From Corynebacterium sp. CNCTC7651 (GTDB lineage Bacteria > Actinomycetota > Actinomycetes > Mycobacteriales > Mycobacteriaceae), in NCBI RefSeq assembly GCF_021496665.1, contig NZ_CP071246.1, positions 1,612,001 through 1,676,000 on the forward strand: a DNA stretch of 64,000 nucleotides. The letters are read 5' to 3'. Both the position numbers and the translations under genes were made by a program. Below the pieces are notes generated by a model, which was not told the origin of the DNA, ran no database searches, and worked only from the letters and a program-made list of their open reading frames with translations. Each line of letters begins with the position of its first letter. Position 1 is the stretch's first letter. This document shows, in pieces, positions 1-63,618 of the stretch.

Positions 1-1816
1 CCGGCACCCGCGCCAGCGCGTCCATGCCCACGCTCGGACTCACCCCCGGGGCGAGTTTGACCCAGACGGATTGGGAGGGAGCGTCGAAAAGCGCAATATC
101 GCTCCGGTTCAGCACGCCCATCAGCGGCGCGCCCTCAACCACCTGGATGGAAAACACGCGCGTCACCCCTGGTTGGTGGAGGGCAACGCTTGTCGACGCC
201 GCACGCCCAGCCGTTTGCGGAGTCGGCGGCAGGATGATCGTGCCCGGCGTGGGTTCGGCAATCGCGGTGTCGGTGCGGAGCACGCCGCCAAGCTGCGGAT
301 TCCACGCCGCGACGGTCATCGGCCCTTCGGTGTCGGCGAAGGACGCATCCAGCACCAGATCCGTCACCGCCGCGGCCGCCTCCACCTCCGGCAATTCGGC
401 GATAGTCGCAGCGAGCGCCCCCGCATCGCCGTTCGGCGTGACCACGACATCCGTCGGCGTCGCGCCCTCCACCGCCTCCGACAACGTGGCCTGGGCGGAC
501 GCGCCGCCCACCAGCAACGCCGCCGTCAGCGTGGCACCGATCCACACCGCGGCCGCCGTCGCCCCGGAACGCCCCGGGTGCCGCGCCAGCTGGGCGACCG
601 CCTGCCGCCCCTCCGGCCCGCTCACTCGGGCCATCTGCTTTGCGACGAACGTAAACACCGACCCCGCAGCCGAACCCGTCGCTTCGACATCGGCAGCTCG
701 CAACGCTTGGAGCGGCGAGACTCGTGTGGCCGCGTAGGCGGGGCGCAGGGCCGCAAGGACGCTGGGCACCACCCCGGCCGCGAGGCCAACCGCCACAAGG
801 CCGGCCCAAAAACCCGGTCGCGCGGCACCGGCGGGCAGGCCCCGCAGCACCGCTGCACCCGCAAGAACGCCGAGGGCGATGCCGCCGAGCGCGCCGATCA
901 CCCCGGCGCGCAGCGCGTTGGAGGTCAGGAGCCAGAAGACTTGGCGCCGCAACGCACCGATGCTGCGCAGCAGCGCGATCTCCCGGGTGCTGCGCGCGAG
1001 CTGGAGCTGGTAGTTGTTCCCGATCACCACAAACGCCGCGAGCAGGGACACCGCGCTGAGCAGCTTGAGGGCTAGGGCGATGGTCCGCGTGCCGACGGCA
1101 TAGTTCGACGCGTTCGCAGCAACGTATGCCTCGCTCGCCATAACGCTCGCCCCCGCGCCAGACGCTGCCACGAGCTCATCAACCGCGGCAAAGACCTCCC
1201 CTGCGTCGCCCTCCGCGGCCACCAGCAGCGTCGTACTCCCCTCAACGCCAAGCAAGCGCTGGGCTGTGGGCAGGTCAGACAGCAGCGTGGGCAGGCTCGG
1301 TTCTTCGGTAGCACCCAGAGCCGCGGTCGCAATGCCAGCGATCGTGACGTGCTCCGCCTCGCCGCCGTACCCCTCCACTTCGATCTGGGCGCCGACGGGA
1401 TAGCGCGTGGGTTTGCCGGGGACCTCCACAAGCAGCGCCTCGGATTCACCGGCGGGCAGGTGCCCGTCGGTGATGGTGAGCAGGGAAGCGTCGATAAGCA
1501 CTTGCACCCCGACGGCGGTCGGCGGCTCGGTGCGGGTGACCGCGATGCCCGCCGCTTGCTCAGTGACGCCGCGGACGCCCGGGAGGCCGCGGATGCCCTC
1601 GGCGAGCGAGGGCCGCAACCCGACCTCGCTGCTCGCTGAGGTGACAACCACAGACGCGTCGCCGATAGACGTGCGAACGGCGCGCTCCATCTCGGCCCGA
1701 ATGCCGTGCTGGATCAGGAAGGTGAAGCTGACCAGCGCGGTTGCCAAGAGGACGGCGATAACTGTCGCCGGAGAAAGCCGTGTGGTGTTGCGCAGGCGCC
1801 CGCCTGCAGGATGCAT
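1..1816 (-). CDS. FtsX/MacB-type ABC transporter permease (partial, runs off the left edge)
   Basis: The reading frame is open from an ATG at 1816 to the window edge (about 605 codons), so the C-terminus is missing. The protein starts with a basic stretch and a membrane segment (about residues 14-34), then has a long extracytoplasmic part, a cluster of membrane helices from about residue 240, and a second half that begins again with a membrane helix (ATAAAVWIGATLTAALLVGG). The segment STREIALLRSIGALRRQVFW just after a helix is the cytoplasmic coupling motif of FtsX-like permeases. Members work with an ATPase subunit, expected outside the window to the left, in lipid, lipoprotein or peptide export or in cell-wall hydrolase control. 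The substrate cannot be told. AGGGGC before the ATG is a plausible ribosome site. Family assignment is firm; role is open. Confidence 0.85.
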   Translation of the reverse strand, partial: MHPAGGRLRNTTRLSPATVIAVLLATALVSFTFLIQHGIRAEMERAVRTSIGDASVVVTSASSEVGLRPSLAEGIRGLPGVRGVTEQAAGIAVTRTEPPTAVGVQVLIDASLLTITDGHLPAGESEALLVEVPGKPTRYPVGAQIEVEGYGGEAEHVTIAGIATAALGATEEPSLPTLLSDLPTAQRLLGVEGSTTLLVAAEGDAGEVFAAVDELVAASGAGASVMASEAYVAANASNYAVGTRTIALALKLLSAVSLLAAFVVIGNNYQLQLARSTREIALLRSIGALRRQVFWLLTSNALRAGVIGALGGIALGVLAGAAVLRGLPAGAARPGFWAGLVAVGLAAGVVPSVLAALRPAYAATRVSPLQALRAADVEATGSAAGSVFTFVAKQMARVSGPEGRQAVAQLARHPGRSGATAAAVWIGATLTAALLVGGASAQATLSEAVEGATPTDVVVTPNGDAGALAATIAELPEVEAAAAVTDLVLDASFADTEGPMTVAAWNPQLGGVLRTDTAIAEPTPGTIILPPTPQTAGRAASTSVALHQPGVTRVFSIQVVEGAPLMGVLNRSDIALFDAPSQSVWVKLAPGVSPSVGMDALARVP

Positions 1817-1838
1817 GCCGCTGCCCCTGCGCCGCGGC

Positions 1839-2054
1839 CTACTTCTCGTCCTTCTCCCAAGACGGGGTGGCACCCCAGTTGTCGTCGGCCTCATCGATCG
1901 CGTCGGCGCGCTTGGTGCGCTCCTTGGCAATCGCGATGGCGTGCTCCGCCTCCTCGCGGGTGTCGTACGGGCCCATGCGGTTGTCCCAGGATTCGACCTT
2001 GCCCTGGGTCACTTCGCCGGTTGCGGGGTTGTAGTAGAACTTCTCGTCGGCCAC
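1839..2054 (-). CDS. Small conserved protein, SPOR-like
   Basis: This 71-residue acidic protein starts MADEKFYYNPATGEVTQGK and includes a DTREEAEHAIAIAKER segment. It has no signal peptide or membrane segment. Small proteins of this kind, with a WxxRMGPYDTREEAE-like core, are common in corynebacteria and resemble the short repeat of SPOR domains, but the function is unknown. It ends 22 bp before the FtsX-type permease start and may be co-transcribed with it. Confidence 0.75.
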   Translation of the reverse strand: MADEKFYYNPATGEVTQGKVESWDNRMGPYDTREEAEHAIAIAKERTKRADAIDEADDNWGATPSWEKDEK

Positions 2055-2131
2055 GGTAGCTCCTTAACGCTCCAGTTGAGGGTGTGATTTGTCTCTCCAA
2101 CCCTACCCGCGCCGTTGGTACTGTGGGGCCC

Positions 2132-3331
2132 ATGGCTTTTTACACTGGCCCGGAGGATGCGGCGGCTGGGCGCGCCGTCGAAAAGCATAAAGCCCTGGTG
2201 GGGCACGCGCCGGCGCACGTGGCTTCGGCGCCGGGGACGTGGGTGCTGATTGGGGAGAACGTTGACCACTTCGGCGGCGTGACCATTCTGGGGCTTGCGG
2301 GGGTGCGCGCGGCCGCGGCGGTGAGCCCGCGCGAGGACGGGGAGATTGTGATTCGGGCGGAGGGGCCGCTCGCCGAGCCACTTGAGGTGCGCGGGAGCCT
2401 TTCCATGCTTGCCGACGGCAGCATTGAAAACCCCTTGGCTAACCGCTTCATCGGGTTGATTCAGGCGCTGATTCAGCGGCAGATCATCTCGCGGGATACG
2501 TCGGGGATGGATATCACGATTGTGTCGGACTTCCCGCTGGGCGCTGGGCTTGGCGCGCTGTACGCGGCGGATGCAGCGCTGGCACTGGCGCTGGCGGCGG
2601 AGCACCCTGAGGTGAATGAGCCGCCGCTGCGCGCGCGGTTGGCGGAGATTTGCTCCCACGCCGTGGCGACGCACTCCACCCTGGCCGTGTTGCGGGCGCG
2701 CCACACGCTGGCGCTGCGCGGCACGGAAGGCCAAGTCAACGTGGTGGATTACGCGGACGGGTCCGTCACTCCTGCCCCGCACCCGGCGAAGCTGGGCGTG
2801 CGGATTTTCTCCGTGGCCAAGGAGCTGGGGCAGCCGCACGGTGCCCAGGCGGAGCAGATCGCGCAGTGGCGCGGGTTCATCGATGATGCGGTGAGCAACT
2901 TCGGCGTGACCTCGCTGCGGGAGCTGCCGGATAACGTCGACCGCGTAGTCGCGTGGGTCGAGGCGCGCCGGGATGCCGGGGATGCCAACGCCCCCGATCC
3001 GGCGACCGCGCGCCAGTGGGTGCAGTTCTGCGAAACCGAGACGCTGCGCAGCCTGGCCACCGCGAAGGCGCTGCGCTCCCGGCGCGGCAATGAGCTGTTC
3101 ACGCTGCTGAACTCGCGTTCTGAGGCGCACGACATCGACACTCCGGATGCCCTTGTCGCCCAGGTGCTGGACGGCGGCGCGGTTGCGGCGCGCCCGGCGG
3201 CTGCCGGCACCTCCCAGGCCGTCATGGCGTTCGTGCCGGTGCAGGACGCGGATGCGTTCGTGGATCGTTTTGCCGAGGACTTCGAGGTCCTGGAGATCGC
3301 CGCCGGCGAGCCGGCCCGCGTGGAGGTTTAG
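2132..3331 (+). CDS. galK: Galactokinase (GHMP kinase family)
   Basis: Predicted to phosphorylate galactose with ATP in the cytoplasm (Leloir pathway). The galactokinase signature appears as GTWVLIGENVDHFGG at residues 35-49. The GHMP ATP-binding segment is DFPLGAGLGALYAADAAL at about 131-148; it is divergent, having GLGALYAA where many family members have GLSSSAA. At 399 residues the length is normal. The start at 2132 is preferred over an upstream ATG at 2084 because TACTGT (2119-2124) lies 7 nt before it, the pattern of a leaderless corynebacterial transcript. No other gal gene is adjacent, so a related GHMP sugar kinase activity is possible. One copy of the recurring CGTCGAWAAGC motif lies at 2176-2186. 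Confidence 0.85.
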   Translation: MAFYTGPEDAAAGRAVEKHKALVGHAPAHVASAPGTWVLIGENVDHFGGVTILGLAGVRAAAAVSPREDGEIVIRAEGPLAEPLEVRGSLSMLADGSIENPLANRFIGLIQALIQRQIISRDTSGMDITIVSDFPLGAGLGALYAADAALALALAAEHPEVNEPPLRARLAEICSHAVATHSTLAVLRARHTLALRGTEGQVNVVDYADGSVTPAPHPAKLGVRIFSVAKELGQPHGAQAEQIAQWRGFIDDAVSNFGVTSLRELPDNVDRVVAWVEARRDAGDANAPDPATARQWVQFCETETLRSLATAKALRSRRGNELFTLLNSRSEAHDIDTPDALVAQVLDGGAVAARPAAAGTSQAVMAFVPVQDADAFVDRFAEDFEVLEIAAGEPARVEV

Positions 3332-3380: not shown

Positions 3381-4778
3381 CTAGTCCGCCGGCCAGGCGA
3401 ACACCACTTCGCGCGCCGCGGGATCGGCGCGCACCAGCGAAAACATCGCCTCCGTCCCCTCCGGCGGCGCGCCGATGGACGGCCCCAGCACCGGCGGGTT
3501 GGTGACAAAAATGCGGGCGCGATCCTCCGCCTCCTCGCCGCGCTTGAGCACCACGCCGCTGAAGTTCTGCCCCACCCATGGGGCCAGCACCGTCGCCTCC
3601 GTGAGGTGCAGCGCCGCGCGGTCCACGGTGTTGGCCAGTTGGGAGGTGCGCGCCATGGTCTGTAAAACGGTGGCGGTGGATTCGGTCACCCAGGCCGGAA
3701 CCTCATAGCCGCCGCAGATGGCCAGGCAATACTCGGTGGCGTACCTGTCCACCAGCCGGCGCAGCGGCGCGGTCACGTGGCTGTAGTACCCGCCGATCCC
3801 GGCGTGCACCTCCGGCGCTTTCTCACTTAGGTCCACGTAGCCTGCACCGCGCAGGAGTTTCTGCGCCTCGCGCATCACGGCCATGCCGCGCGGGGTGTCC
3901 GCGTCCACGCCGGCAAGGAACTCGCCGATGCCGCAGTCCCCCGGAATGTCATACCCCAAGTTCACGGCCTCGCGGCGGAACTCCGCTTCCGCTTCCGCCG
4001 TCGCCGGGCCCAGCGTGCGCAGAATCCCCTGGCCGGCCTCCTCCATCATCCGCCCCGCGACCATGCCGGTGAGCAGGGAGATCTCGGAGTTGTAGTCCAT
4101 CACCGGGTGCCGCGGCTCGATGACCAGCTCGTACACACCGCCATCTTCCACCACGCGGACGGACGGCACGCGCAGGTTGATAGCAGCTCTACGTAGCGAC
4201 GACTGCTGCCGCAACCGCCCAACTTCTGGCAGGAGGTGGATGGAGGGGTGTTCCTGGGAACGTCGAAAAGCATCCTGCACCCCGTCGTAATCCAAGCGGG
4301 CGACGGAGTGGACCAGCGCGCGCTCCACGTGCGCGTCCTCCACCTCTCCCGCGGCGTCGAGGTCGAACCTCCACAGCACGGCGGGCCGATCCACGCCCGG
4401 CAGCAGGGACGCGGACCCCTCCGACAGCGGCGCGGGGTGCAGGCGCGCGGGCTCATCCGGCAGGTAGACGGTTTGGCCGCGGATGAGGGACTCCTGCTTG
4501 ACCAGCGTCGCAGGCTCCACGAACGCGGCCACGTCCGCGATGGCGTAGAGGACGCGGTAGCCGTCGCCGCGGCGCTCAATGTACACGGCCTGGTCCAAGT
4601 CCTTGGACCCCGGCGGATCGATGGTGACCAGCGGAATCGCGCGCGCATCGCGGCGGGCCTCCGCGTACTGGTCCGAAAGCCGCGCGGCCTCCTCCACCAC
4701 CTCGGGGGCGAAGTCGGTGGGCACGGCGAACTCCTCGGCCAAGGCCCGGAAATTCAGCGGCGCGGCGTACAGCTTCAT
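3381..4778 (-). CDS. RNB-domain ribonuclease (RNase II/R family)
   Basis: This 465-residue cytoplasmic exoribonuclease-like protein has the RNB catalytic core. IDPPGSKDLDQAVYIERR (about residues 53-70) carries the metal-binding aspartates, followed by GYRVLYAIADVAAFVEP and, later, HSTV-like GYYSHVTAPLRRLVDRY, the substrate-binding signature of the family. Usual RNase II/R proteins have N-terminal cold-shock domains and a C-terminal S1 domain and exceed 600 residues. This actinobacterial form is short and lacks clear versions of those, although a small OB-like tail (GQNFSGVVLKRGEE) is present. It converges on galK. An internal CGTCGAWAAGC copy lies at 4261-4271. Confidence 0.85.
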   Translation of the reverse strand: MKLYAAPLNFRALAEEFAVPTDFAPEVVEEAARLSDQYAEARRDARAIPLVTIDPPGSKDLDQAVYIERRGDGYRVLYAIADVAAFVEPATLVKQESLIRGQTVYLPDEPARLHPAPLSEGSASLLPGVDRPAVLWRFDLDAAGEVEDAHVERALVHSVARLDYDGVQDAFRRSQEHPSIHLLPEVGRLRQQSSLRRAAINLRVPSVRVVEDGGVYELVIEPRHPVMDYNSEISLLTGMVAGRMMEEAGQGILRTLGPATAEAEAEFRREAVNLGYDIPGDCGIGEFLAGVDADTPRGMAVMREAQKLLRGAGYVDLSEKAPEVHAGIGGYYSHVTAPLRRLVDRYATEYCLAICGGYEVPAWVTESTATVLQTMARTSQLANTVDRAALHLTEATVLAPWVGQNFSGVVLKRGEEAEDRARIFVTNPPVLGPSIGAPPEGTEAMFSLVRADPAAREVVFAWPAD

Positions 4779-5259: not shown

Positions 5260-6681
5260 TTAGGAAAGCGGCTGCCGGTGATGCGCCACGTCATTGAACG
5301 TGCGCACCACGCCAAACTCCCCGTAGAACTCCACCACGGACACACTGGCCAGGTCCAGGAAGATGTGCCGGAACGTCTCCGCGCCCGCGCCCAGCGCCTG
5401 CCGGATCACGGATTTGATCGGCGTCATGTGCGTTACCACCAGCACCGTCTGTCCCTCGTGCGCCTCCTGCACCTTCAGCCTCGCGCGCGTTACGCGCCGG
5501 TGCAGCTGGGTCAGCGATTCGCCTTCCGGGGGCTTCCCGCTTATCGACGCCTCCCATCCACCAAACTCCTCCGAGTACCTCTCCATGGCCTCTTGGCGGG
5601 TGAGCCCTTCGAAGACTCCGAAGCTCATTTCCCTGAAATCGTCGATGACCTCGATATTTTCAGGGTCGATGCCCAGGGCGTCCGCGCACACGGCCGCCGT
5701 CTGGCGGGCGCGCTTCTGCGGCGAGCTGATAATCGCGTCGATCTGGCCCATGTTGGCCAGCGCCTTTGCAGCCCTTTGGGCCTGGGCGTGGCCGATGTCC
5801 GTCAGCTCCGGGTCAGATGTTCCCGAGTACCGACGTTCCGCGGAATGTTGCGTCTGCCCGTGCCGCAGCAGCACAAACCGGGTCCGCGGCGCGTCGCTGC
5901 CCGACCAGTGGGCGGGGTTGCCCGTCTGGTGAGCCTTGCCGGCAGTGGCTTCCCCACCAGCCTCAACTACCCCTCCGGCCTCAGCTGCCCCACCGGCCGG
6001 GGCGCCACCAGCCTCAACTACCCCTCCGGCCCTACCTGCCTCCCCGGCCTCCCCAGCCGAACCTGAGACGCGCATAAGTTTGTCACCTTCCGCTCCAGCG
6101 GCCTTATCGGCCCTGGTCGGTGCAGAATCGGACAAACTTTGGCTCTGGGGGGTGCGGCTGTCAGCCTCCCCACCGGAGGCTCCACCCGCGTCGGCAGAGG
6201 CACCGCCGGCGCCACCCGCGCCAGCGGAGGCTCCACCGCCTGGCGCATCGCCGCCGAGGACGCGAGGGGTGCCGTCCTTGGCGGCGGCATCCATGGCGAC
6301 GTTGGAAAGTTCGTCGGCCTTCTTGTTCTTCGCGCGCGGGACCCAGGAGTAGGTGACCTTCTCAAACTGTTTTGCCAGGTCGCGAGCCTCACGCGCGAGC
6401 TGCTGCATGTCGGGGTGTTTGATCTTCCAGCGCCCAGTCATCTGCTCGACGACCAGCTTGGAGTCCATCGACACGTCCACGCGGGTGGCGCCGAGCTCGG
6501 CGGCGGCCTCCAGGCCCTTAATCAGGCCGTGGTACTCGGCGACGTTGTTGGAGGCCTTCTTCCCGACCACGTACGCGACCTCGGCAAGGGTCTCCCCCTC
6601 CGGGCCATAGACGACGGAGCCGGAACCGGCGACGCCGGGGTTCCCGCGGGAGCCGCCGTCGCAAAACATCTGGACGTGCAT
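5260..6681 (-). CDS. Bifunctional RNase HI / acid phosphatase (histidine phosphatase)
   Basis: The N-terminal RNase HI domain (residues 1-135) shows the catalytic set D8 (CDGGSRGNPG), E49 (NNVAEYHG), D73 (VSMDSKL) and D123 (KADELSN), and cleaves RNA in RNA-DNA hybrids. The C-terminal domain (about 267-473) is a histidine phosphatase: RHGQTQHS at 273-280 and a second histidine in VVTHMTPIKS. In actinobacteria this fusion has both RNase H and acid or alpha-ribazole phosphatase activity. The linker (about 140-262) is unusually long and rich in Gly, Ala and Glu. Its DNA contains a near-identical repeat of about 25 bp (copies near 5955 and 6007), so it probably varies in length between strains. 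It lies in a run with the zinc-ribbon gene. Confidence 0.92.
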   Translation of the reverse strand: MHVQMFCDGGSRGNPGVAGSGSVVYGPEGETLAEVAYVVGKKASNNVAEYHGLIKGLEAAAELGATRVDVSMDSKLVVEQMTGRWKIKHPDMQQLAREARDLAKQFEKVTYSWVPRAKNKKADELSNVAMDAAAKDGTPRVLGGDAPGGGASAGAGGAGGASADAGGASGGEADSRTPQSQSLSDSAPTRADKAAGAEGDKLMRVSGSAGEAGEAGRAGGVVEAGGAPAGGAAEAGGVVEAGGEATAGKAHQTGNPAHWSGSDAPRTRFVLLRHGQTQHSAERRYSGTSDPELTDIGHAQAQRAAKALANMGQIDAIISSPQKRARQTAAVCADALGIDPENIEVIDDFREMSFGVFEGLTRQEAMERYSEEFGGWEASISGKPPEGESLTQLHRRVTRARLKVQEAHEGQTVLVVTHMTPIKSVIRQALGAGAETFRHIFLDLASVSVVEFYGEFGVVRTFNDVAHHRQPLS

Positions 6682-6690: not shown

Positions 6691-7374
6691 TTACTCCACC
6701 GGCGAGACGCGGACCAGCAGGGTGCCGCAGTTCGGGCAGGTCGGCAGTTCGTCCTCGTCCACCGCCAGTACCTCTGCGCGCTCGGCCGGAGGCAGCTGGA
6801 TGTAGCAGCCGCCACAGGTGCGGGTGTTGAAGGAGGCTGCTCCGATTTCGTCGTAAAGCGAAAGCACCTCGGCGGGAAGCTGGGAGCGCAACGCGGCGGG
6901 ATCAGCCTGTTCCACGGTGGGGAGGGCGTCCACGGCGCGCTGGGCGGCTTCGACCTTGCGGTTCAGCTCGTCCAGGCGCGCGCCGTGGTTGTCGCGGTTG
7001 TTGCGAAGCGCCGCGATCTCGTTGTGCGCCTCCTTGAGTTCGTACAGCAGGTCGGCGATGCGGGACTTCGCGGCGTAGCGGTCGTGCTCGAGGTCCTTGC
7101 GGCGCTCGGGGTCGGTCTCGGCGGTGAGCTGGCGCTTGTCGTCGAGTTCGCGGCGCTTGAGCTTGCGCTCGTCCTCCTGGATGCGCAGGATCTCCAGCTC
7201 CATGTCATCCACGGCCATCTGGGCGGCGGACGCGGCGGACTGCAGGCGCTCGCGCTCCGCGAGTAGCTTGGCCAGCTCCTTCTCCTCGGGACGGGTCTGC
7301 GTCGGCTGCCCGGCGGCGCGCTCGGCGCGGGCCAACTCGAGGAGTACGGGCTGCAGGTCTTTCTTCAGGTGCAT
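6691..7374 (-). CDS. Coiled-coil zinc-ribbon protein
   Basis: This 227-residue protein is mostly a long charged coiled coil (about residues 30-150) followed by a C4 zinc ribbon: C187-G-G-C190 and C213-P-N-C216. It belongs to the conserved actinobacterial family (C4-type zinc ribbon, homologues next to the RNase HI/phosphatase gene in mycobacteria and corynebacteria). Its function is not established; the structure suggests nucleic acid or protein binding. It lies 9 bp upstream of the RNase HI gene and 11 bp after the Nif3-like gene, so the three probably form one operon. Confidence 0.88.
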   Translation of the reverse strand: MHLKKDLQPVLLELARAERAAGQPTQTRPEEKELAKLLAERERLQSAASAAQMAVDDMELEILRIQEDERKLKRRELDDKRQLTAETDPERRKDLEHDRYAAKSRIADLLYELKEAHNEIAALRNNRDNHGARLDELNRKVEAAQRAVDALPTVEQADPAALRSQLPAEVLSLYDEIGAASFNTRTCGGCYIQLPPAERAEVLAVDEDELPTCPNCGTLLVRVSPVE

Positions 7375-7385: not shown

Positions 7386-8603
7386 CTAGGGCTTGGGGTT
7401 GCCGGGCTCGGGGTCGGCAGACACCGGGTCGCCGGGCCCGGGGTCGGCCGACTCAGGATGTGCCGACACGGTCCACGGGTCGGTGCGGATGTGCAGAATC
7501 TCGGTGTCCACGTCTAGGCGTGCCACGATACCCGCGGCCTGCTCGGTCCACGGAAACTCGCTGGCCCAGTGCGCGGTGTCAATCACGGCGGGGCCGCCGG
7601 CGCGCAGGTGCTCGTCCACGGGGTGGTGGCGCAGGTCGGAGGTGACGTACACGTCCACGCCCAAGCGTGCAACGTCCTCGAGGAAGCTGTCGCCGGAGCC
7701 GGAGGACACGGCCACCTTCTTCACCATCTGCTCCGGGTCGCCGGCAGCGCGCACGCCCCAGGCGGTCTCCGGCAGCGCGTTCGCCACCTGCTGCGTGAAC
7801 TCCCGCAGCGTCATCGCCTCCGGCAGCTCGCCGATGCGCCCCAGCCCGGTCGCGATCTCCAAGTCGCGCGTCTCCTCCATCTGCACCACATCGAAGGCTG
7901 GTTCTTCATAGGGGTGGGTGTGACGGAGAACGTCGATAAGCGTGCGGCGCAGGCGGGTGGGGGCGACGAACTCGGCGCGGACCTCGGCCCCGGAGTGGTG
8001 CTCGCCCACGGTCCCCTCGGTCGGGTCCGCGCCCTCCACCGGCGTGAAGCTGCCCTCGCCCTCCCAGGTGAAGGCGCAGTCGCGGTAGTCGCCGATCTCG
8101 CCTGCACCGGCGTCGAAGAGCGCGCGCATCACGCGCTCCACGTCCGCGGGCGGAATGTGCACGCCCCACGCGTCCATGCCGCCCAGAAACACCGGCTTGA
8201 TCGGCCGACCAGGGGTAATGCCCACAAGCTCAGCCAGGCGGTCGGACACGCCCGGGCGCGCCGAATCCGCGTTCGTGTGCGCCGCAAACAGCGCGCAGCC
8301 GCCGGTCAACAGCGTGTGGATGACCTTGCCCTTCGGCGTGTTCGCGGCCACAGAGTGCACGCCGCGCAGCAACAGCGGGTGGTGTACCACCAGGAGCTGA
8401 GCCCCACTATCGACGGCCGCTTCCGCCACCCCCTGCGTACAGTCCAGCGCGAACGCGACCTTGGTCACCTCCGTATCCGGGTCGCCGCAGATCAGGCCCA
8501 CGTGGTCCCAGCTCTCCGCGAGCTGCGGCGGATAGGCGGCCTCGAGCGCGGCAACAACGTCGCCGACGGTGGTTGGTCCTTGCGCAGTCTTGGCACCAGT
8601 CAT
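7386..8603 (-). CDS. Nif3-like dinuclear metal-centre protein (YqfO/YbgI family)
   Basis: At 405 residues this is the long form of the family, with an inserted middle domain. Metal-site motifs include SWDHVGLICGDP near the N-terminus, LLVVHHPLLLRG (the HHP pair), FAAHTNADSA, and C-terminal DVYVTSDLRHHPVDEHL with VIDTAHWASE. Members form toroidal hexamers and are annotated as GTP cyclohydrolase I type 2-like, but the true role is unclear. The start at 8603 (MTGAKTAQ) is preferred over an upstream ATG at 8651, which would overlap the divergent HAD gene. The C-terminal tail is low complexity (SADPGPGDPVSADPEPGN). A CGTCGAWAAGC motif lies at 7931-7941. Confidence 0.9.
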   Translation of the reverse strand: MTGAKTAQGPTTVGDVVAALEAAYPPQLAESWDHVGLICGDPDTEVTKVAFALDCTQGVAEAAVDSGAQLLVVHHPLLLRGVHSVAANTPKGKVIHTLLTGGCALFAAHTNADSARPGVSDRLAELVGITPGRPIKPVFLGGMDAWGVHIPPADVERVMRALFDAGAGEIGDYRDCAFTWEGEGSFTPVEGADPTEGTVGEHHSGAEVRAEFVAPTRLRRTLIDVLRHTHPYEEPAFDVVQMEETRDLEIATGLGRIGELPEAMTLREFTQQVANALPETAWGVRAAGDPEQMVKKVAVSSGSGDSFLEDVARLGVDVYVTSDLRHHPVDEHLRAGGPAVIDTAHWASEFPWTEQAAGIVARLDVDTEILHIRTDPWTVSAHPESADPGPGDPVSADPEPGNPKP

Positions 8604-8638: not shown

Positions 8639-9286
8639 GTGATCCCCTCAACAGTTATGCTCGACGTGGACGGCACGCTCATCGACTCCTTCCCCGGCAT
8701 CCGGGAGGGCTTCGTCCGCGCGCTCGACTCGATTGGGCACCCGCTTCCCGACGATCAATTTTTAGCCCGTATCCCCGGACCACCCATGCGCGAATCCATG
8801 GCCGCGGCGGGACTCGACCCGGAGCAGGTTGCCCGCGCCATGAGGGTGTATTCCGACTTCATGTCCACCGAGGGCTGGCGCGATTTCACCGTGTTCGACG
8901 GTGTACTGGACCTGGTCGCCGAGTGGAAGGCGGAGGGGTTGGGCGTGGTCACCGCCACGTCCAAGTCGGAACGCTTCGCGCGCCTGGCGCTCGAAGAGGC
9001 AGGGATTATGCAGCACATCGACTTTTTGGGCGCCGCGAACCCGGATGCTGGCCGCGTGACCAAGATCGAGGTCATCCGCCACGTGCTGGATTCCGTCGAC
9101 CCGCCGCACCCGATCATGGTGGGCGACCGGATCCACGACTTCGAGGGCGCAGCCGAGTTCGGCATCCCGTCCGTGGCGGTAACGTGGGGCTACGGCACAG
9201 AGGAGGAGTGGGCGCAGGCGAACCACATCGCGCGCAGCCCGGAAGCACTTAAGGAGATTGTGAAGCACCATGTCGCAGGCGAATGA
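8639..9286 (+). CDS. HAD-family phosphatase (phosphoglycolate phosphatase-like)
   Basis: Cytoplasmic 215-residue hydrolase. Motif I is MLDVDGTLIDS close to the N-terminus (nucleophile and acid/base aspartates), motif II is VVTATSKSE, the lysine lies in GRVTKIEVI, and motif IV is PIMVGDRIHDFEGA. The cap (PGIREGFVRALDSIG...) is that of the phosphoglycolate phosphatase/beta-phosphoglucomutase class. The GTG at 8639 is chosen because an upstream extension to 8573 would read through the start of the divergent Nif3-like gene. TACAAA near 8614 is a possible -10. The next gene's ATG overlaps its last codons, so the two are translationally coupled. The substrate is not certain. Confidence 0.88.
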   Translation: MIPSTVMLDVDGTLIDSFPGIREGFVRALDSIGHPLPDDQFLARIPGPPMRESMAAAGLDPEQVARAMRVYSDFMSTEGWRDFTVFDGVLDLVAEWKAEGLGVVTATSKSERFARLALEEAGIMQHIDFLGAANPDAGRVTKIEVIRHVLDSVDPPHPIMVGDRIHDFEGAAEFGIPSVAVTWGYGTEEEWAQANHIARSPEALKEIVKHHVAGE

Positions 9287-9786: not shown

Positions 9787-10686
9787 GTGAGTACCCAGCT
9801 GAAAGAAAAGCCCTGGTGGCGGACGTTTCTCACCCCCGGCTGGGTCATCGCGGCGCTTTTGATCGTCGCATTTTCCTACTTCGCGTTCACCGTGCTCGCA
9901 CCCTGGCAGCTGAACAAGAACGAGCGGCTGGAGCAGCGCAACGAGCACATCGTCACCGCGTTTGAGCAGGACCCGGTGCCGCTCGGCTCCGTCCTCCGCG
10001 CGGACGGCACCCTCTCGCCTGAAGACGAATGGACCCGCGTCACCGCCACCGGCCGCTACATCGAGCCGGAGGTGCTCCTGCGCCTGCGCCCGGTCGACCG
10101 CACCCCCGCGTTCCAGGCGCTCACCCCGTTCCAGTTGGACAGCGGCGAGGTCCTCCTGGTCAACCGCGGCTGGGTGCCCGCGCAAGACTCCACGAAGGTC
10201 CCGGACATCGCCGCCGCGCCCACCCAAACGGTCACCCTCACGGGCATGCTGCGTGTCGACGAAGGCACGCACCCAACCGCCCCCATGCACGACCAGGGCT
10301 ACCAGATGGTCTACTCCATCAGCCCGCCGCAAATCGCGGAGCTCACCGGCACCGAGATGCTCAGCCCCTACCTCCAGCTCCTAGAGGGCGAACCCGGCGT
10401 GCTCACCCCCATCCCACTTCCCCAGCTGGAAACCGGCAACCATCTCTCCTACGGCTTGCAGTGGATCGCCTTCGGCATCCTCGCCCCCGCCGGGCTCATC
10501 TACTTCATCGCCGCCGAAACCCGCGAACGCCGCCGCTTCCGCGAGGAACAGGAGCAATTGCTTATCGACGCTCCCTTGAACGTCGATAAGCACCAAGCCC
10601 CGCCCGAAACCCGCGCGCGCTACGGGCACGCCAGGCGCAACCCGTGGGCCACGGCCTACGATAAGGAGCAGGACCGCACCAGCTAG
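9787..10686 (+). CDS. SURF1-family cytochrome oxidase assembly protein
   Basis: This 299-residue membrane protein has the family layout: an N-terminal transmembrane helix (about residues 14-36) ending FTVLAPWQLNKNERLEQRN, a soluble domain with RGWVPAQDS and GYQMVYSI, and a C-terminal helix (about 220-240). SURF1 proteins help haem insertion and assembly of the cytochrome aa3 oxidase. The start is GTG 9787. The C-terminal cytoplasmic tail (EQEQLLIDAPLNVDKHQAPP) is encoded by an inverted pair of the 11-bp motif (10560-10591), so it may have been shaped by the DNA signal rather than by protein function. The gene follows the phosphatase pseudogene by 6 bp. Confidence 0.9.
   Translation: MSTQLKEKPWWRTFLTPGWVIAALLIVAFSYFAFTVLAPWQLNKNERLEQRNEHIVTAFEQDPVPLGSVLRADGTLSPEDEWTRVTATGRYIEPEVLLRLRPVDRTPAFQALTPFQLDSGEVLLVNRGWVPAQDSTKVPDIAAAPTQTVTLTGMLRVDEGTHPTAPMHDQGYQMVYSISPPQIAELTGTEMLSPYLQLLEGEPGVLTPIPLPQLETGNHLSYGLQWIAFGILAPAGLIYFIAAETRERRRFREEQEQLLIDAPLNVDKHQAPPETRARYGHARRNPWATAYDKEQDRTS
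10560..10591. repeat. Inverted pair of the CGTCGATAAGC motif
   Basis: GCTTATCGACG (10560-10570) and CGTCGATAAGC (10581-10591) face each other across 10 nt, giving an 11-bp perfect stem. It lies inside the SURF1 gene. This is the only paired occurrence of a motif found 14 times in the window. Confidence 0.9.
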
Positions 10687-11737: not shown

Positions 11738-11763
11738 AATTGTTCGTCGTCAAGCAGGAGCCC

Positions 11764-16693: not shown

Positions 16694-16966
16694 ATGGAAC
16701 TCTCTCAGCGCCTGAATCTGGAGGCGATCGAGGTGGAGCCGGACGACGCGTTCTCGCGGCTTGCCCAGCTTATCGACGACTCCTTCAACCTCTCCATCTC
16801 CCCCACAACCGCCCTCGCCGATTCGGGCCTGAGTTCGCTCGACCGCATTGAGCTTGCGATTCGCATCGAGGAGCACTTTGGCGTGCGCATTACGGAGGCT
16901 ATTTACGACGATTACTCCACCGCCGGCGCTCTCGCCGAATATTTGGCTGAAGAGGGAGACAACTGA
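16694..16966 (+). CDS. Acyl carrier protein
   Basis: This 90-residue acidic helical protein has the phosphopantetheine attachment region ALADSGLSSLDRIELAIRIE; the serine aligned with the DSL motif is in SSLD (the usual aspartate before it is a serine here). It carries acyl groups on a 4'-phosphopantetheine arm. Corynebacteria make fatty acids mainly with type I synthases that contain their own carrier domain, so this free carrier probably serves a side pathway, perhaps with the divergent hydrolase or the coupled HAD protein. Its stop codon overlaps the next gene's ATG. An in-frame ATG at 16685 is an alternative start. Confidence 0.88.
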   Translation: MELSQRLNLEAIEVEPDDAFSRLAQLIDDSFNLSISPTTALADSGLSSLDRIELAIRIEEHFGVRITEAIYDDYSTAGALAEYLAEEGDN

Positions 16967-46032: not shown

Positions 46033-46033
46033 G

Positions 46034-47804: not shown

Positions 47805-47808
47805 GTGG

Positions 47809-49914: not shown

Positions 49915-50489
49915 TGGGTCCTCCTCATCATTGCACCCCATGTGCGGAGCGCTTGCTTCCTCACTGGGCCAGGAAGGTGCGGGTAGATCGCCTTGCCTAG
50001 GGGCTTTACTCGCCCCAACATCTTGGAGGCACGCGTTTGCGTGATTGGGGTTGGCTGGGTCTTCGGTGAACCAATTGGCGTGGACGCTCCGCCACCGGCA
50101 CTACGCTCAAGTGCTTCGTAACCGTCTCTCCACTGCACCAGTAGATCCACAAGACGACGGGAGTTTTCGAACGCATCTCCGCGCCGCAGCCACAGCGCAT
50201 CACCTTCGAGCTCCAGAAGCAGGCCGGAGAATTCAGTTTCGCGTCCGCTCAGCTCACCGATTCGCCGGCTTGGTACGTAAAATTCGACCCGGGGATGGTC
50301 GTCGGCCGGGTCGATCCGGTAGTTACCGACCACGTTGACACAGCCGATAGCTTGCGGGAAGCGCTCGAGTAAAGCATTAAAAGCCTCAAGGTCAGATGTA
50401 ACTACGCACCCATCAACCAACATCCCTTGAGGGATCTCTCTGCCGTTGGGGGTGAGAAATATTGTCCGAGCCTCAGTTTCTCGCGCCAA
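49911..50489 (-). CDS. Hypothetical protein between wecB and the fused glycosyltransferase
   Basis: This 192-residue protein starts at a TTG (MARETEARTIFLTPNGREIP) with AGGAGG upstream. It has a soluble N-terminal half and a basic C-terminal tail (GRVKPLGKAIYPHLPGPVRK). No family is recognised. It is coupled to the downstream glycosyltransferase and lies 20 bp after wecB. Confidence 0.65.
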   Translation of the reverse strand: MARETEARTIFLTPNGREIPQGMLVDGCVVTSDLEAFNALLERFPQAIGCVNVVGNYRIDPADDHPRVEFYVPSRRIGELSGRETEFSGLLLELEGDALWLRRGDAFENSRRLVDLLVQWRDGYEALERSAGGGASTPIGSPKTQPTPITQTRASKMLGRVKPLGKAIYPHLPGPVRKQALRTWGAMMRRTQ

Positions 50490-50509
50490 CGCAGAAACCT
50501 CCTTGCTTT

Positions 50510-51682: not shown

Positions 51683-51742
51683 ACGTGCTCCTCAGTAGTG
51701 CTTCGGCTGACAGAACCATGAAAGTTCGTCATTTTTGTTGAT

Positions 51743-51762
51743 GATAGTCCAAGTGGACTATC
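51743..51762. promoter_or_regulatory. Palindrome in the wecB promoter region
   Basis: GATAGTCCA-AG-TGGACTATC, with perfect 9-bp arms, lies between the divergent wecB and the next gene, so it is a candidate operator. Confidence 0.5.
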
Positions 51763-51798
51763 CGTTCCGAGCTAGAGCTGATCTGTAGGCTTGACCCC

Positions 51799-52095
51799 AT
51801 GTATCAATTCGTTGTCGGAGCCGCCGCCGGGTACGTATTCGGCACGAAGGCTGGCCGCAAGCGCTACCACCAGATCGTCAACGCGACCCAGGCTGTGATC
51901 AACTCGCCGGTGACCAAGCAGGTGACCAGCTCTGCCAGGAAGGCGCTCGCGAACAAGATCGATCCGGAACCACGGATGCGCGAGCTCAAGGACGTTAGCG
52001 GCAAGAAGGGTCGCTCACTCCGTGGGGGCAAGGGCAAGCAGGACGGGCGTGACGCTGATACTCGCGACCAGATTCTCGAGCCGGACGAGGACTAA
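51799..52095 (+). CDS. YtxH-like small protein
   Basis: This 98-residue protein begins MYQFVVGAAAGYVFGTKAGR, with a short hydrophobic glycine-rich N-terminal segment followed by a helical, charged tail. This fits YtxH/gas-vesicle-like small membrane-associated proteins. TAGGCT 7 nt before the ATG suggests a leaderless transcript. The gene overlaps the 3' end of ppx/gppA by a few bases. Confidence 0.75.
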   Translation: MYQFVVGAAAGYVFGTKAGRKRYHQIVNATQAVINSPVTKQVTSSARKALANKIDPEPRMRELKDVSGKKGRSLRGGKGKQDGRDADTRDQILEPDED

Positions 52096-53033: not shown

Positions 53034-54265
53034 GCGAGGTCCTCTCCGGCGTCGGCAAGCGAAATGCCCAAGCGCTCCAGCGTGGGCCAGTCCTGCGGGA
53101 TTGCGGAACCGCGAAGGCCTGCGTGTTCGGCGGCGAGGGCGATGGCTTCGGTGCCGAAGCGGAGGCGGCCGGGGCCCTCGGCGAGGGCGTAGGCGATCAG
53201 CACGTGGAGGCACTTCACGCGGTCCGGCATGCCGCCGCCGGAGAAGTCCGTGCCCAAGTCCTCGATGGCGTTGCGCTCGGCGAGGTAGTGCTCGTGGGCG
53301 GCCTTGTAATCGGCCTGGAGCTCCTCCGATTCGGCGAGGCGGGATTCCATCCACTTCATCACCTGCGCCACCTCGAGGCGGGAGGCCTCCGCGGTCAGGC
53401 GCGGGTCGGTGAGGTAGTAGAGGGTGGGAAACGGGGTGCCGTCCTCAAGTCGCGGGGCCGTCTTGACCACCGCGGGCTGGCCGTCCGGTGTGCGGTAGGC
53501 CACAGCGAGGACGCCGCGCGGCTCGCGGCCGAGCTGCTGCGTGATTGTTTCGATGTCTTGTGGGGACACGGTCATAGCCTCGATTGTGTCACGCAGCGCC
53601 GCCTCGAGGCGTCTCGCCTGGCTGCGCAGCGACGTGTAGGTGAGCGCCCCGGTGACGACGCCGCCGAGGACGGGGATGGCCTTTGCTGTGGAGCGGAGCG
53701 CGGTGCGCCGGGCGACGTTGGCGATGGCGCGGCTGGCGGCGCGGCGAGCAACCCGGTTGGCGGTGCGTTGGGCGGCGCGCTCGCCGAGGTCCGTCGCTGT
53801 GGTTTGCGTGAGATAGCTGCGGAGGATGTGTTGCGAGCCTTGGGCGCCGAGCATGGTGGCCAGGAGGGTGGCGAGCTGGTCCGTCTGGGTGGGGTATTTG
53901 AGGTCGAGGCGGGTCCAGCCGTTGAGGTAGGCGAGTTTTTGAATGAGGCGGAGCGCGTGGGCGTAGTACTGGACGATGTCGCCGGGGATTGAGACCAGCA
54001 TGGTGAAGAAGCCGCCGAAGCTCAGGCCGAAGGAGACTGCTGAGCTGCGGGTGACTTCGGCCTCGATGGTGGCTTTGGCGATGTCGTCGAGGATGTCGCG
54101 GGGGATCCCTGCAGCGATGACGTCGCTGGCGAGTGCGCGGTCGATCTGCTCCTGCGGGATACCGCGCTTGCGAAGTTCTTTGCTCAGGAACCTTTCGCGG
54201 TCGATCTGTGCCGGTTTGAGGCGAATGATCCGCGCGAGATAGAGGGCTTCGTCGTTGTTCGCCAC
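53030..54265 (-). CDS. EcsC-like/DUF501 fusion protein
   Basis: This 411-residue protein joins two parts that are usually separate. Residues 1-230 are EcsC-like, with the membrane-facing segment SFGGFFTMLVSIPGDIVQYY and a basic helix run (RTANRVARRAASRAIANVAR). From about M231 (MTVSPQDIETITQQLGREPR) the sequence is a DUF501 protein, including KTAPRLEDGTPFPTLYYLTD and GGGMPDRVKCLHVLIAYALA. The frame is continuous with no stop between. A separate start at 53575 is possible, but its ribosome site is poor (GAGG 2-3 nt away). DUF501 genes often sit between ftsB and ppx, as here. Neither function is established. Confidence 0.8.
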   Translation of the reverse strand: MANNDEALYLARIIRLKPAQIDRERFLSKELRKRGIPQEQIDRALASDVIAAGIPRDILDDIAKATIEAEVTRSSAVSFGLSFGGFFTMLVSIPGDIVQYYAHALRLIQKLAYLNGWTRLDLKYPTQTDQLATLLATMLGAQGSQHILRSYLTQTTATDLGERAAQRTANRVARRAASRAIANVARRTALRSTAKAIPVLGGVVTGALTYTSLRSQARRLEAALRDTIEAMTVSPQDIETITQQLGREPRGVLAVAYRTPDGQPAVVKTAPRLEDGTPFPTLYYLTDPRLTAEASRLEVAQVMKWMESRLAESEELQADYKAAHEHYLAERNAIEDLGTDFSGGGMPDRVKCLHVLIAYALAEGPGRLRFGTEAIALAAEHAGLRGSAIPQDWPTLERLGISLADAGEDLA

Positions 54266-56537: not shown

Positions 56538-56591
56538 TGAGCGTCGTAAAGCAAGGTGCCCGGAGCCTACAGTCCCGGCACCAGCGAGCGC

Positions 56592-60708: not shown

Positions 60709-62694
60709 TTAGGTTCCGGGCGGGGTGGAGCGCAGAGCGCGGGTGTTCAAGTCGCGGCGGGCCTGCTCGAGGGCCAGGAGGTCTGAGAAGAGCGCGTTGT
60801 AGGCCTGCTCGTCGTCTGACGGGCGCATGCGCTGCAGTTGCGCCTTGAGCTGGGCGATCTGGTCGCCCACGCGGACCTCCTGGAGGCGGGAAAGCACGGA
60901 ATCGATGTAGACATCGATGTTGTCGGCGTGGACGGGCTCGACGGCGAGCTCCGAAACCAAGTTGCGGCCGGCGAAGTCTCGCATCTCCCCGGCCACGGCG
61001 GCGATCCAGTTGGGATCGGCTTCGCCGTCGTTGTTCGGGGCGGTGTGGCTGCCGGGTGGGGTCTGGCTGCCGGATGCGGCGGCAGTGGCACCCGCGGCAA
61101 CGCCGCCGGCGGCGGTGATTGCCTCGCGGACCTGGTGGTAGGCGAGATTTGTGAAGGCATCGGGGTGGATGCCGTCGAAGTAGGTGCCCGCCTTGCCCGG
61201 ATACTGCAGTGCGGCCTTCAAAGCTTCGCGCTGGGGCCAGAGAATCGGGTCGTTCGGGTTGGGCGCGACAAGTGCCGGGGCGCTGCCGGGTTGCGGTGAC
61301 TGGGTGCTGCGGGAAGGTTGGGTCTGGGGTTTCGTCGAAAAGCGGGGGCCCTGCTTCGGTTTCTTGGACTCCTCGCGGACCTGCTGCACCACCTCGTCCG
61401 GGTTGGCCCAGCCCACCCAGCCGGCTAGGCGGCGGGCGTACTCGGTGCGCAGAACCGGATCGTTGACCTCGGCGACGATGGGCACGGTGCGTCGCAAAGC
61501 CTGGAGGCGGCCCTCGGCGGAATCGAGGGGGTAATCGGCCAGGATGGACTCGAGGACGAACTCGAGCATGGGCACGCGGTCCGCCACCAGGTCGCGTACG
61601 GCGGCGTCGCCCTTGGCCAGGCGCAGATCGCAGGGGTCCATGCCGTCGGGGGCCACGGACACGAAGCTCTGGCCGGTGAACTGCTGGTCGCCCGCGAAGG
61701 CGCGCATGGCGGCTTTCTGGCCGGCCTCATCGCCGTCGAAGGTGTAGATGAGCTCGCCGCGGAAGAAGTTATCGTCCAGCATGAGGCGGCGGATGGTCTG
61801 CAGGTGGTCTGTGCCGAAGGCGGTACCGCAGGAGGCCACGGCGGTTTTCACACCGGCGGCGTGCATGGCCATCACGTCGGTGTAGCCCTCCACGATCACC
61901 GCCTGGTGGTTGGTGGCGATGTGCTTCTTCGCCAAATCCAGCCCGAAGAGGACTTTGGACTTGTGGTACAGCAGCGTGTCCTGGGTGTTGATGTATTTGC
62001 CCATCGGGTCATCGTCGTAAAGCTTGCGTGCCCCGAAGCCGATGACGTTGCCGGCCGCGTCCTTGATGGGCCACAGCAGGCGGCGGCGGAATTTGTCGAT
62101 GGGGCCGCGCTTGCCCATGGAGCTTAAGCCCGCGTCCTGGAGTTCCTGGACGTCGAAGCCTTTGCGCAGCAGGTGCTTCGTCAGCGTGTCCCAGCCGTCC
62201 GGGGCGTAGCCGCACTCGAAGTGGTAGATGTGCTCGCGCGTGAAGCCGCGGTCCAGCAGGAAATTGCGGCCGCGCTCCGCCTGCGGGGTCTCCAGCTGCT
62301 GGCGGTAGAACTCGTGTGCGGCCTTGTTGGCGGCGAGCAGGCGGGCGCGGGTGCCGGGCTTGACGTCGCGGGCGCCGGTGGAGCCGCCCTGGTAGTTGAT
62401 GCGGTAGCCGATTTGGTCCGCGACCGCCTCGACCGCCTCGGGGAACGTGAGCTGCTCCATCTCCATGAGGAACGTGAACACGTCCCCGCCCTTGCCGGTG
62501 GAGAAGCAGTGGAAATAGCCGCGCGCGGGGCGCACGTGGAACGAGGGCGTTTTTTCGTCCTTGAAGGGGCTCAAGCCCTTCAAGGAGTCGTGCCCGGCGG
62601 GCTTGAGCTGCACGTATTCGCCGACAATGTCCTCGATTGCCGCGCGCTCGCGGATAGCCTCAATATCGCTATCCGGAATTCTTCCCCGTGCCAT
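60709..62694 (-). CDS. dnaG: DNA primase, lacking most zinc-finger ligands
   Basis: This 661-residue primase makes RNA primers for replication. The N-terminal zinc-binding domain region keeps the framework (GLSPFKDEKTPSFHVRPARG ... HCFSTGKGGDVF) but the canonical C-x2-H ... C-x2-C ligands are S42, K45, C63 and T66, so three of four are gone. The Toprim core is intact: VIVEGYTDVMAMHAAG and IYTFDGDEAGQKAAM. The C-terminal helicase-binding region is present. The start at 62694 (MARGRIPDSD) fits family N-termini. A CGTCGAWAAGC copy lies at 61333-61343. Confidence 0.93.
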   Translation of the reverse strand: MARGRIPDSDIEAIRERAAIEDIVGEYVQLKPAGHDSLKGLSPFKDEKTPSFHVRPARGYFHCFSTGKGGDVFTFLMEMEQLTFPEAVEAVADQIGYRINYQGGSTGARDVKPGTRARLLAANKAAHEFYRQQLETPQAERGRNFLLDRGFTREHIYHFECGYAPDGWDTLTKHLLRKGFDVQELQDAGLSSMGKRGPIDKFRRRLLWPIKDAAGNVIGFGARKLYDDDPMGKYINTQDTLLYHKSKVLFGLDLAKKHIATNHQAVIVEGYTDVMAMHAAGVKTAVASCGTAFGTDHLQTIRRLMLDDNFFRGELIYTFDGDEAGQKAAMRAFAGDQQFTGQSFVSVAPDGMDPCDLRLAKGDAAVRDLVADRVPMLEFVLESILADYPLDSAEGRLQALRRTVPIVAEVNDPVLRTEYARRLAGWVGWANPDEVVQQVREESKKPKQGPRFSTKPQTQPSRSTQSPQPGSAPALVAPNPNDPILWPQREALKAALQYPGKAGTYFDGIHPDAFTNLAYHQVREAITAAGGVAAGATAAASGSQTPPGSHTAPNNDGEADPNWIAAVAGEMRDFAGRNLVSELAVEPVHADNIDVYIDSVLSRLQEVRVGDQIAQLKAQLQRMRPSDDEQAYNALFSDLLALEQARRDLNTRALRSTPPGT

Positions 62695-62726
62695 GCCCGC
62701 AATCGTAGTGTGGGACAATCCGGGGC

Positions 62727-63116
62727 GTGAAAGCGCGCACTGGCATCCTGGCGGCGTGCCTGCTGCTGGGCGGGTGCGGGGTTCTGGAGGCGTCCGGGTC
62801 GACACCGTCCGGGCTCCCCGCTTGCGGGCGCTTGCCGGCGGAAGCTACGAGCACCATCGAGTTAGTGAAGGCCGGCGGGCCGTTCCCCTACCCGGACAAC
62901 GATGACAAGCGATTTGGCAACTACGAGGGCGTACTTCCGGACGAGAAATTGGGCTACTACCGCGAATACACCGTGGAAACGCCGGGGCTAGGCCACCGCG
63001 GGGCACGGCGCGTGATTACGGGCGGCGGTACTGACGGTGTGGTGGACAGCTGGTTCTACACGGCGGACCACTACGAATCGTTCTGCGAGATTGTTGGGGA
63101 GGGGCAACGTGGATAA
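62727..63116 (+). CDS. Secreted guanyl-specific ribonuclease (RNase Sa-like) lipoprotein
   Basis: The N-terminus (KARTGILAACLLLGGCGVLE) ends in a lipobox LGGC, so the enzyme is probably exported and lipid-anchored. The mature part aligns well with Streptomyces RNase Sa: LPAEATSTIELVKAGGPFPY, GNYEGVLPDEKLGYYREYTV, ETPGLGHRGARRVITGG and WFYTADHYESF. The catalytic Glu (REYTV), Arg (ARR) and His (DHY) are conserved. It cleaves RNA after guanosine. The start is GTG 62727. The stop overlaps the barstar-like start by 8 bp, so toxin and inhibitor are translationally coupled. Confidence 0.85.
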   Translation: MKARTGILAACLLLGGCGVLEASGSTPSGLPACGRLPAEATSTIELVKAGGPFPYPDNDDKRFGNYEGVLPDEKLGYYREYTVETPGLGHRGARRVITGGGTDGVVDSWFYTADHYESFCEIVGEGQRG

Positions 63117-63354
63117 ACGGAATCCGGTGCTGCTCACGGCGCCGGTGGATTCCGTCGCCGGGTTTGTTGCGGCGATTTCCCATGCGGTGTTCGGGGTGGA
63201 ACGCACGGCGCCGACGAATTTGGACGGGCTGGCTGACATGCTTCGAGAGGCCCGCGTGACCCACGTGGTCGCGTCCGACTGGCGGCTGGACCCGGAGGAG
63301 ACGCGCCGCGTGCAGCGGGTGCTGCTGGACAATGACGTGGTGTTGTACCGGTAG
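63109..63354 (+). CDS. Barstar-like ribonuclease inhibitor
   Basis: This 81-residue protein (GTG start after GGGGAGGGG) has the barstar core TAPTNLDGLADMLREAR, which lines up with the NLDALWD segment of barstar whose aspartate inserts into the RNase active site, and ends in the strand pattern VQRVLLDNDVVLYR. It is cytoplasmic and would protect the cell from the ribonuclease encoded just upstream before it is exported. The RNase/barstar pairing is well known in Bacillus and Streptomyces. Confidence 0.8.
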   Translation: MDKRNPVLLTAPVDSVAGFVAAISHAVFGVERTAPTNLDGLADMLREARVTHVVASDWRLDPEETRRVQRVLLDNDVVLYR

Positions 63355-63618
63355 GTGGGATTTGGGCGTCGATAAGCACAGTGCTCCCGGGAACCGTAGG
63401 GATTTGTGCTCTTAGATGCGTCGGCGGGAAAGCCCTGGTGGGGAGCGTTTTCGCTGGTCGGAGGCGTGCTTCGAGGGAGGCTTATGCGCGGCGGGCGACG
63501 CAACTGGGAGCTAAAACCCCGAGGATGCTGGGGAGAAGTGTAGGGAACCCTAGCGATTGGATGTGAGTTATGTCATAATCCATAGGACTGTGATGTAGAG
63601 CACGCAAGGGAGGAAGCG
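63355..63618. other. 264-bp gap before the CstA gene
   Basis: No gene is convincing here; an open frame at 63381-63566 has no family look. The CGTCGATAAGC motif lies at 63367-63377, the only clear intergenic copy. Confidence 0.6.

Follow-up and report, generated by a model that had tools for sequence, protein, structure and literature searches.

A genus-wide DNA motif with two dialects in Corynebacterium: a candidate DNA uptake sequence

Preference for DNA is methylation-dependent in Campylobacter. Abundant uptake sequences have been described from two Gram-negative families, the Pasteurellaceae and the Neisseriaceae. The DNA uptake sequence (DUS) of the Neisseriaceae, which has ComP as its receptor, is a short motif found in thousands of copies per genome and often inside genes; its dialects follow the phylogeny while the core is constant, and some members of the family have none (PMC3630211). 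The uptake signal sequence (USS) of the Pasteurellaceae, with PpdA/ComN as the candidate receptor, consists of a core and flanking tracts, has a spacing of about 1 kb and exists in two clade-specific types (PMC7811141, PMC12616744); one of its orientations is favoured in reading frames (PMC2346458). Inverted terminator pairs are common in Neisseria and Haemophilus influenzae (PMC3630211, PMC5217627). In Micrococcus luteus natural transformation depends on Tad, and tad clusters with ComEA/ComEC are found (PMC8467076). A survey of spaced motifs included three Corynebacterium species, for which the part considered here reports only clustered regularly interspaced short palindromic repeats (CRISPR) (PMC5217627). 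The present analysis deals with an 11-bp motif, CGTCGAWAAGC, in a stretch of 64,000 nucleotides from Corynebacterium sp. CNCTC7651 (contig NZ_CP071246.1, positions 1,612,001 to 1,676,000), and this whole stretch is called the window. The genus-wide signal with two dialects to which the motif belongs is real, and it probably serves naturally transforming corynebacteria as a DNA uptake (self-recognition) sequence. Among the matches listed in open PMC full text no title or abstract deals with this motif or with uptake sequences in Corynebacterium; the letters of the motif used as a query returned 14 papers, two of them on C. glutamicum, and none on the motif as judged from the title and the start of the abstract.

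A preliminary description of the window had listed 14 exact copies on both strands, and all of its coordinates are correct (nine copies on the forward strand, five on the reverse). It had estimated that well under one copy should be expected in 64 kb; the mean of 100 shuffles of the window is 0.07, and none of the shuffles reaches 14. Its proposal of a genome-wide signal was borne out when the whole genome, one contig of 2,453,109 bases, was scanned: 566 exact copies are present (297 forward and 269 reverse), compared to 3 (1 + 2) for a control pattern which is CGTCGAWAAGC spelled backwards. In 464 kb sampled from this genome 100 exact copies are seen where a third-order Markov model expects 0.65, which is far above chance. 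The sequences flanking the copies are unrelated and have mainly their composition in common, which rules out a single repeat family, including a mobile short repeat of the repetitive extragenic palindrome (REP) or miniature inverted-repeat transposable element (MITE) kind.

Counts of the one-base neighbours of the exact word in the same 464 kb show that position 6 and position 7 tolerate other bases, that position 9 does so in part, and that CGTCG and the final GC are nearly invariant. The true core is CGTCGNNAAGC, and it is seen 242 times where the Markov model expects 8.5. Upstream of the core lies an arm of about 35 bp which is G-rich and C-poor on the motif strand. The G-C skew of the arm is 0.27 at 141 antisense sites, 0.38 at 72 sense sites and 0.26 at 28 intergenic or edge sites; on the downstream side the corresponding values are 0.01, 0.09 and -0.05. 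Within the arm G has a three-base rhythm that moves with the reading-frame class of the site, as expected if G sits wherever the codons permit. The GGGAG said in the preliminary description to precede the core is a genuine consensus, though only a partial one. Downstream of the core, in this genome, there is a short A/G-rich stretch and a run of C at +16 to +20. A hairpin between the arm and this C-run was considered and rejected as unconvincing, the best stem among 150 tried (z 4.1) occurring at 10 of 241 sites.

The distribution over the genus was determined in 201 genomes, drawn evenly and including the one studied here. Exact copies number 52-900 in 138 genomes and 1-31 in the other 63, and no genome lies in between; the low group has a median of 7, the same as that of the reversed control when all 201 genomes are taken together. 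Outside the genus, 199 genomes of the same order have 0-26 exact copies each, which is near or at most a few-fold over the control, and none of them is clearly enriched. In seven loci recorded as Corynebacterium the relaxed core CGTCGNNAAGC was counted as well: it occurs 14 times in 21 kb in C. urinipleomorphum, 7 times in Corynebacterium sp. MSK041, 18 times in the metagenome-assembled genome (MAG) S30M_Sa_12, 4 times in 15 kb in MAG S17M_Sa_7 and once in a further MAG, and is absent from the loci of C. variabile and of a C. urealyticum MAG.

A search for gapped words in 20 motif-poor genomes brought out a second spelling, CATCGNNAAGC, in four of them, with 8-11 copies per 20 kb where about 0.5 are expected. 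Counted over the genus it is present in 625-1337 copies in 11 of the 201 genomes (G006, G052, G093, G104, G110, G137, G142, G143, G150, G152 and G178), the usual number being about 50; three others (G072, G083, G200) are weak, with 159-213 copies. With the two spellings named CG and CA, the two counts divide the 201 genomes into 137 CG, 11 CA (G142 has 80 CG copies as well), 3 weak CA and 50 with neither. The same G-rich arm precedes the core in both dialects. Eleven CG genomes have moderate numbers of both spellings (90-165 exact CG and 118-159 CA copies: G004, G005, G010, G035, G050, G051, G073, G092, G108, G181, G198) and may be mixed or transitional. A third dialect was not found when gapped words were enumerated in 16 of the 50 motif-free genomes (20 kb each, 36 kb for 10 of these), a search which could miss a rare or low-density dialect. 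The word CGTCGNNGAGC is in excess in G047, G131 and G132, and we tentatively read it as a background of L-x-D codons. Other local repeats were also noticed: about 20 copies of a GC-rich palindromic repeat in 20 kb of the comEC region of G151 (L037), possibly a CRISPR array, and TGTGGCTTG 8 times and TACCCGGAC 15 times, each within 20 kb and on both strands, in L044 (G170) and L065 (G158), respectively.

The dialects follow the phylogeny, and only one dialect change is seen. In a tree of TadA from 41 genomes, which carries no support values, all 11 CA genomes fall into one clade together with the weak-CA genomes G072 and G200 and the motif-free G013 and G170. A tree of seven proteins from 40 genomes, four of them CA, agrees in that these four stand together. 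With midpoint rooting the seven-protein tree has a basal group of nine genomes without either spelling, and motif-free genomes also occur within the clade that bears the motif: G131 with G151, G047, G128 (sister of the CG-bearing G063), G170, G013 and G132. It should be noted that support at some nodes is below 0.8 and that the two trees disagree in the deeper branches. Taken with this rooting, on which the conclusion depends, the trees would indicate a single origin followed by several losses. In G047 the loss may be incomplete, leaving a weak remnant: its exact count is 8, and the relaxed core is raised, with 8 copies in 36 kb where 0.8 are expected.

Whether a site is kept between species was followed in pairwise alignments of the orthologous comEC and tad regions, excluding pairs above 97% identity or with less than 2.5 kb aligned. 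For the expectation these nine positions were moved by 30-90 bp with the reading frame kept; the genome pairs share ancestry and the counts are therefore not independent. Between CG genomes 604 of 2149 sites are intact (112.0 expected), and between CA genomes 110 of 289 (29.5 expected). From CG to CA only 4 of 443 sites are intact, compared to 18.0 expected, and 128 of the 443 read CATCG in place of CGTCG; in the opposite direction 2 of 481 are intact (22.6 expected) and 127 are swapped to the other dialect. Elsewhere the other dialect is found at CGTCG sites in 6 of 2149 cases between CG genomes and in 11 of 1386 towards genomes with neither dialect. Towards genomes without the motif 27 of 1386 CG sites are intact where 66.5 are expected, and a second comparison of this kind gave 6 of 385 (18.6 expected). 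Towards the weak-CA genome G200 none of 25 and none of 22 sites are intact, and none are swapped. A smaller set of alignments gave 39 of 68 sites intact (11.1 expected) over eight pairs that share a dialect (CG-CG or CA-CA), and none of 8 (1.6 expected) from G063 to its sister G128. Where both genomes use one spelling, the sites are thus better conserved than the sequence around them; towards species without that spelling they are not. This is the pattern of one set of sites which is constrained as long as the motif is used, given up where it is not, and re-spelled together in one clade.

The placement of the core relative to genes was examined in 500,001 bases of the genome with 264 CGTCGNNAAGC sites, where our own gene finder leaves 12.9% non-coding. 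There are 233 coding sites, 27 intergenic ones and 4 on an edge. Within genes one orientation is favoured, 157 sites being antisense and 76 sense. The preliminary description had the motif read in different frames and both senses; this is so, only unevenly, as 143 of the 233 coding copies share a single antisense frame (xxG CTT NNC GAC G, which reads L-x-D) and the remaining 90 fall into five frame and sense classes. The copies in all classes, together with the intergenic ones, uphold its further claim that selection acts on the DNA and not on one peptide, copies being placed where the codons tolerate them.

The motif is rare in DNA presumed to be recently acquired, base composition being used as a stand-in for foreign origin. 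Bins of 2 kb with less than 60% G+C contain 4 sites where 25.0 are expected; with the window excluded the numbers are 2 and 13.7 (p 2e-4). The spacing of sites, in a test which omitted the window beyond 28 kb, is slightly more even than random: 5 neighbours lie less than 100 bp apart where 13.1 are expected, and 0.55% of simulations are as low, the effect being weaker at larger distances. These results bear on a model in which the motif is bound by a protein that organises the chromosome or is associated with the nucleoid, with a single change of its specificity within the genus. The genome-wide spread, the slightly even spacing, the directional element and the dialects are all compatible with it. 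The model requires, however, that hundreds of sites were re-spelled without a drive (the in-place swap at 128 of the 443 alignable sites), and both the depletion in AT-rich DNA and the near-complete loss in several lineages would be odd for a structural system. We regard this model as unlikely, though it is the one that survives best beside an uptake sequence.

The chi sequence of E. coli is G-rich. A chi-like role in control of recombination, or guidance of a translocase as by FtsK orienting polar sequences (KOPS), would fit a short, very frequent, non-palindromic word spread over the genome behind a G-rich arm. Such sites should show an orientation bias with replication, and none is seen. 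Origin and terminus were not placed by genes, and GC skew, measured in 20 samples at even intervals, gives a weak and noisy signal that is for the most part positive before 1.1 Mb and negative beyond it. The initial 846.5 kb contain 98 exact copies on the forward strand and 95 on the reverse. For relaxed cores, ten samples in the first contig half have 53 forward and 49 reverse and ten in the second half 51 and 58, and the most one-sided of the 20-kb samples have 7 to 2 or 0 to 2. Summed over the 138 enriched genomes the exact copies are 21,610 forward and 21,663 reverse. The absence of replication-strand polarity, in these samples as in the strand totals, speaks against a chi- or KOPS-like role, which we consider improbable. 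Among the roles suggested in the preliminary description an uptake sequence fits best, while chi-like polarity is missing.

The machinery for uptake is present in the genus. ComEC (PF03772) was found in 191 of 191 genomes, comEA with comEC in 40 of 40 loci, TadA (PF00437) in 79 of 80 genomes, the miss (G023) being a fragmented assembly, and DprA (PF02481) in 80 of 80, in G176 as two pieces. The genome studied here has a tad cluster with tadZ, A, B, C, flp and two small pilin-like genes, named from a reading of the sequence. Several observations weigh against an uptake sequence. The main weakness is that ComEC, ComEA, TadA and DprA are alike in genomes with and without the motif, so that co-occurrence does not tie the motif to the machinery; the motif-free genomes keep the genes, and loss of ComEC, TadA or DprA was rejected as the cause of motif loss. 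In the motif-bearing G001, G111 and G113 ComEC is represented by two partial matches and may be split or frameshifted. A comparison by eye of TadE and TadF in 40 genomes gave no clean marker of dialect that would point to a receptor. A two-residue insertion in TadE seemed to match the CA dialect but fails over the 40 genomes, since it is present in the CG genome G161 and the motif-free G013 and absent from the CA genomes G137 and G052. Close inverted pairs are rare, 3 among the 264 sites of the 500-kb sample, one of them intergenic. Finally, no title or abstract among the literature matches listed deals with natural transformation in Corynebacterium. Apart from the few inverted pairs and the non-discriminating machinery, the signal behaves in the computable tests made as an uptake sequence would.

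Two further observations concern ComEC. Among the rows listed, open frames of comEC longer than 700 aa occur in at least 12 motif-free genomes (e.g. G146, G094, G133) and in two of the CG dialect (G018, G079); this could be an extra domain or merely an open frame in GC-rich DNA. The ComEC proteins of the basal motif-free G009, G029, G146, G165 and G176 are very divergent from that of the genome studied here, with scores of 146-162 bits compared to 219-626 in other CG-dialect genomes.

Because the machinery does not discriminate, the uptake-sequence model must assume a dedicated receptor. We infer from the patterns above an uptake role, a receptor and a drive of the following kind. In the directional element the 35-bp G-rich arm would precede the core, which is CGTCGNNAAGC or, in one clade, CATCGNNAAGC. 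A putative receptor at the surface or in the envelope would bind double-stranded DNA carrying this element and hand it on, first to the Tad pilus and from there to ComEA/ComEC. Tagged DNA would be imported and recombined more often, and copies arising by point mutation would spread and be kept (molecular drive). Such an uptake bias would make copies frequent in shared DNA and rare in newly arrived DNA, and would have them re-spelled together when the preference of the receptor changes.

A related model postulates that the element is a self-mark read within the cell once DNA has entered by uptake or conjugation, for instance to protect or channel that DNA, and not a surface signal. The same drive and dialects would be expected, and the presence of the entry machinery also in species without the motif would be natural; no feature of the data demands an internal step, and we know of no intracellular self-mark system with a tag at about one per 2 kb, which we count against it. 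We give this model little chance. An origin by chance composition, by codon bias or as a protein repeat (L-x-D), to which the single antisense frame of 143 coding copies might point, is refuted by the Markov counts for both words, by the intergenic copies, by the dialect swap at position 2 and by an arm that stays on the motif strand in every context, and its probability is negligible.

In the window CGTCGNNAAGC occurs 31 times, exact copies included, and the sites are as follows. The exact core CGTCGAAAAGC lies on the forward strand at 82..92, 2176..2186, 4261..4271, 20701..20711 and, in dnaG, 61333..61343, and on the reverse strand at 21089..21099. The exact core CGTCGATAAGC lies on the forward strand at 1489..1499, 7931..7941 and, between genes, 63367..63377, and on the reverse strand at 5539..5549, 16768..16778 and 22773..22783. 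Two exact cores form an inverted pair at 10560..10591 (10560-10570 reverse, 10581-10591 forward), which lies inside the predicted gene 9787-10686 and is therefore not an obvious terminator. Outside the exact-word gap, relaxed cores are found on the forward strand at 6849..6859, 11745..11755 (intergenic), 16606..16616, 18625..18635 and, both in dnaG, 61490..61500 and 62013..62023, and on the reverse strand at 188..198, 637..647, 2407..2417, 8743..8753 and 19368..19378 (intergenic). The preliminary description had noted a gap between 22.8 and 61.3 kb. This holds for the exact word, but six relaxed cores lie within it: 23153..23163 and 27263..27273 on the reverse strand and 34094..34104, 49350..49360, 53050..53060 and the intergenic 56542..56552 on the forward strand. 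By estimate, the 38.5-kb gap alone is only mildly unusual genome-wide, and it is the base-composition test which carries the point about depletion. The motif-poor stretch 28000..52000 has 50-61% G+C per 2-kb bin and 2 relaxed cores in 24 kb. It is AT-rich and encodes IstA/IstB of IS21, a DUF6492 protein, several glycosyltransferases and a UDP-N-acetylglucosamine (UDP-GlcNAc) 2-epimerase, and from composition and gene content it is probably an acquired surface-glycan locus. A protein search with IS21 for Corynebacterium plasmids gave none among the best 30 of 3865 records.

We hold, with a little better than even confidence, that an uptake-sequence system made of an arm and a core arose within Corynebacterium, a Gram-positive genus, independently of the Gram-negative ones. 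Its dialect would have changed once and throughout, and it would have been lost several times while Tad, ComEA, ComEC and DprA were retained. If this is true, an independent actinobacterial case would mean that DNA self-tagging arises again and again, and in conjunction with other kinds of pili, and natural transformation would be implied in Corynebacterium. Losses that spare the machinery would suggest that self-recognition is the task of a separate and dispensable receptor. The two dialects and the several losses make both a search for the receptor and the model of drive directly testable.

Compared to the described systems, the motif shares with the DUS of the Neisseriaceae its abundance and shortness, its positions inside genes, dialects that follow the phylogeny around a constant core, and relatives without the motif. 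It differs in that Corynebacterium is Gram-positive and has a Tad cluster, in the 35-bp G-rich arm, in having two dialects and not eight, and in the rarity of inverted pairs, and the Corynebacterium system is known here from sequence alone. Inverted pairs, which set Corynebacterium apart from Neisseria and H. influenzae, are not counted as a required feature. Like Micrococcus luteus, these are actinobacteria with a tad cluster and ComEA/ComEC; unlike here, the term "uptake sequence" is absent from the main text of the M. luteus paper (PMC8467076). The flank is G-rich where that of the USS of the Pasteurellaceae is AT-rich, and the cores are unrelated by eye. With the USS the Corynebacterium element nevertheless has in common a core with a flank, a spacing of the order of 1 kb, two clade-specific types and a bias of orientation inside genes, here 157 antisense to 76 sense.

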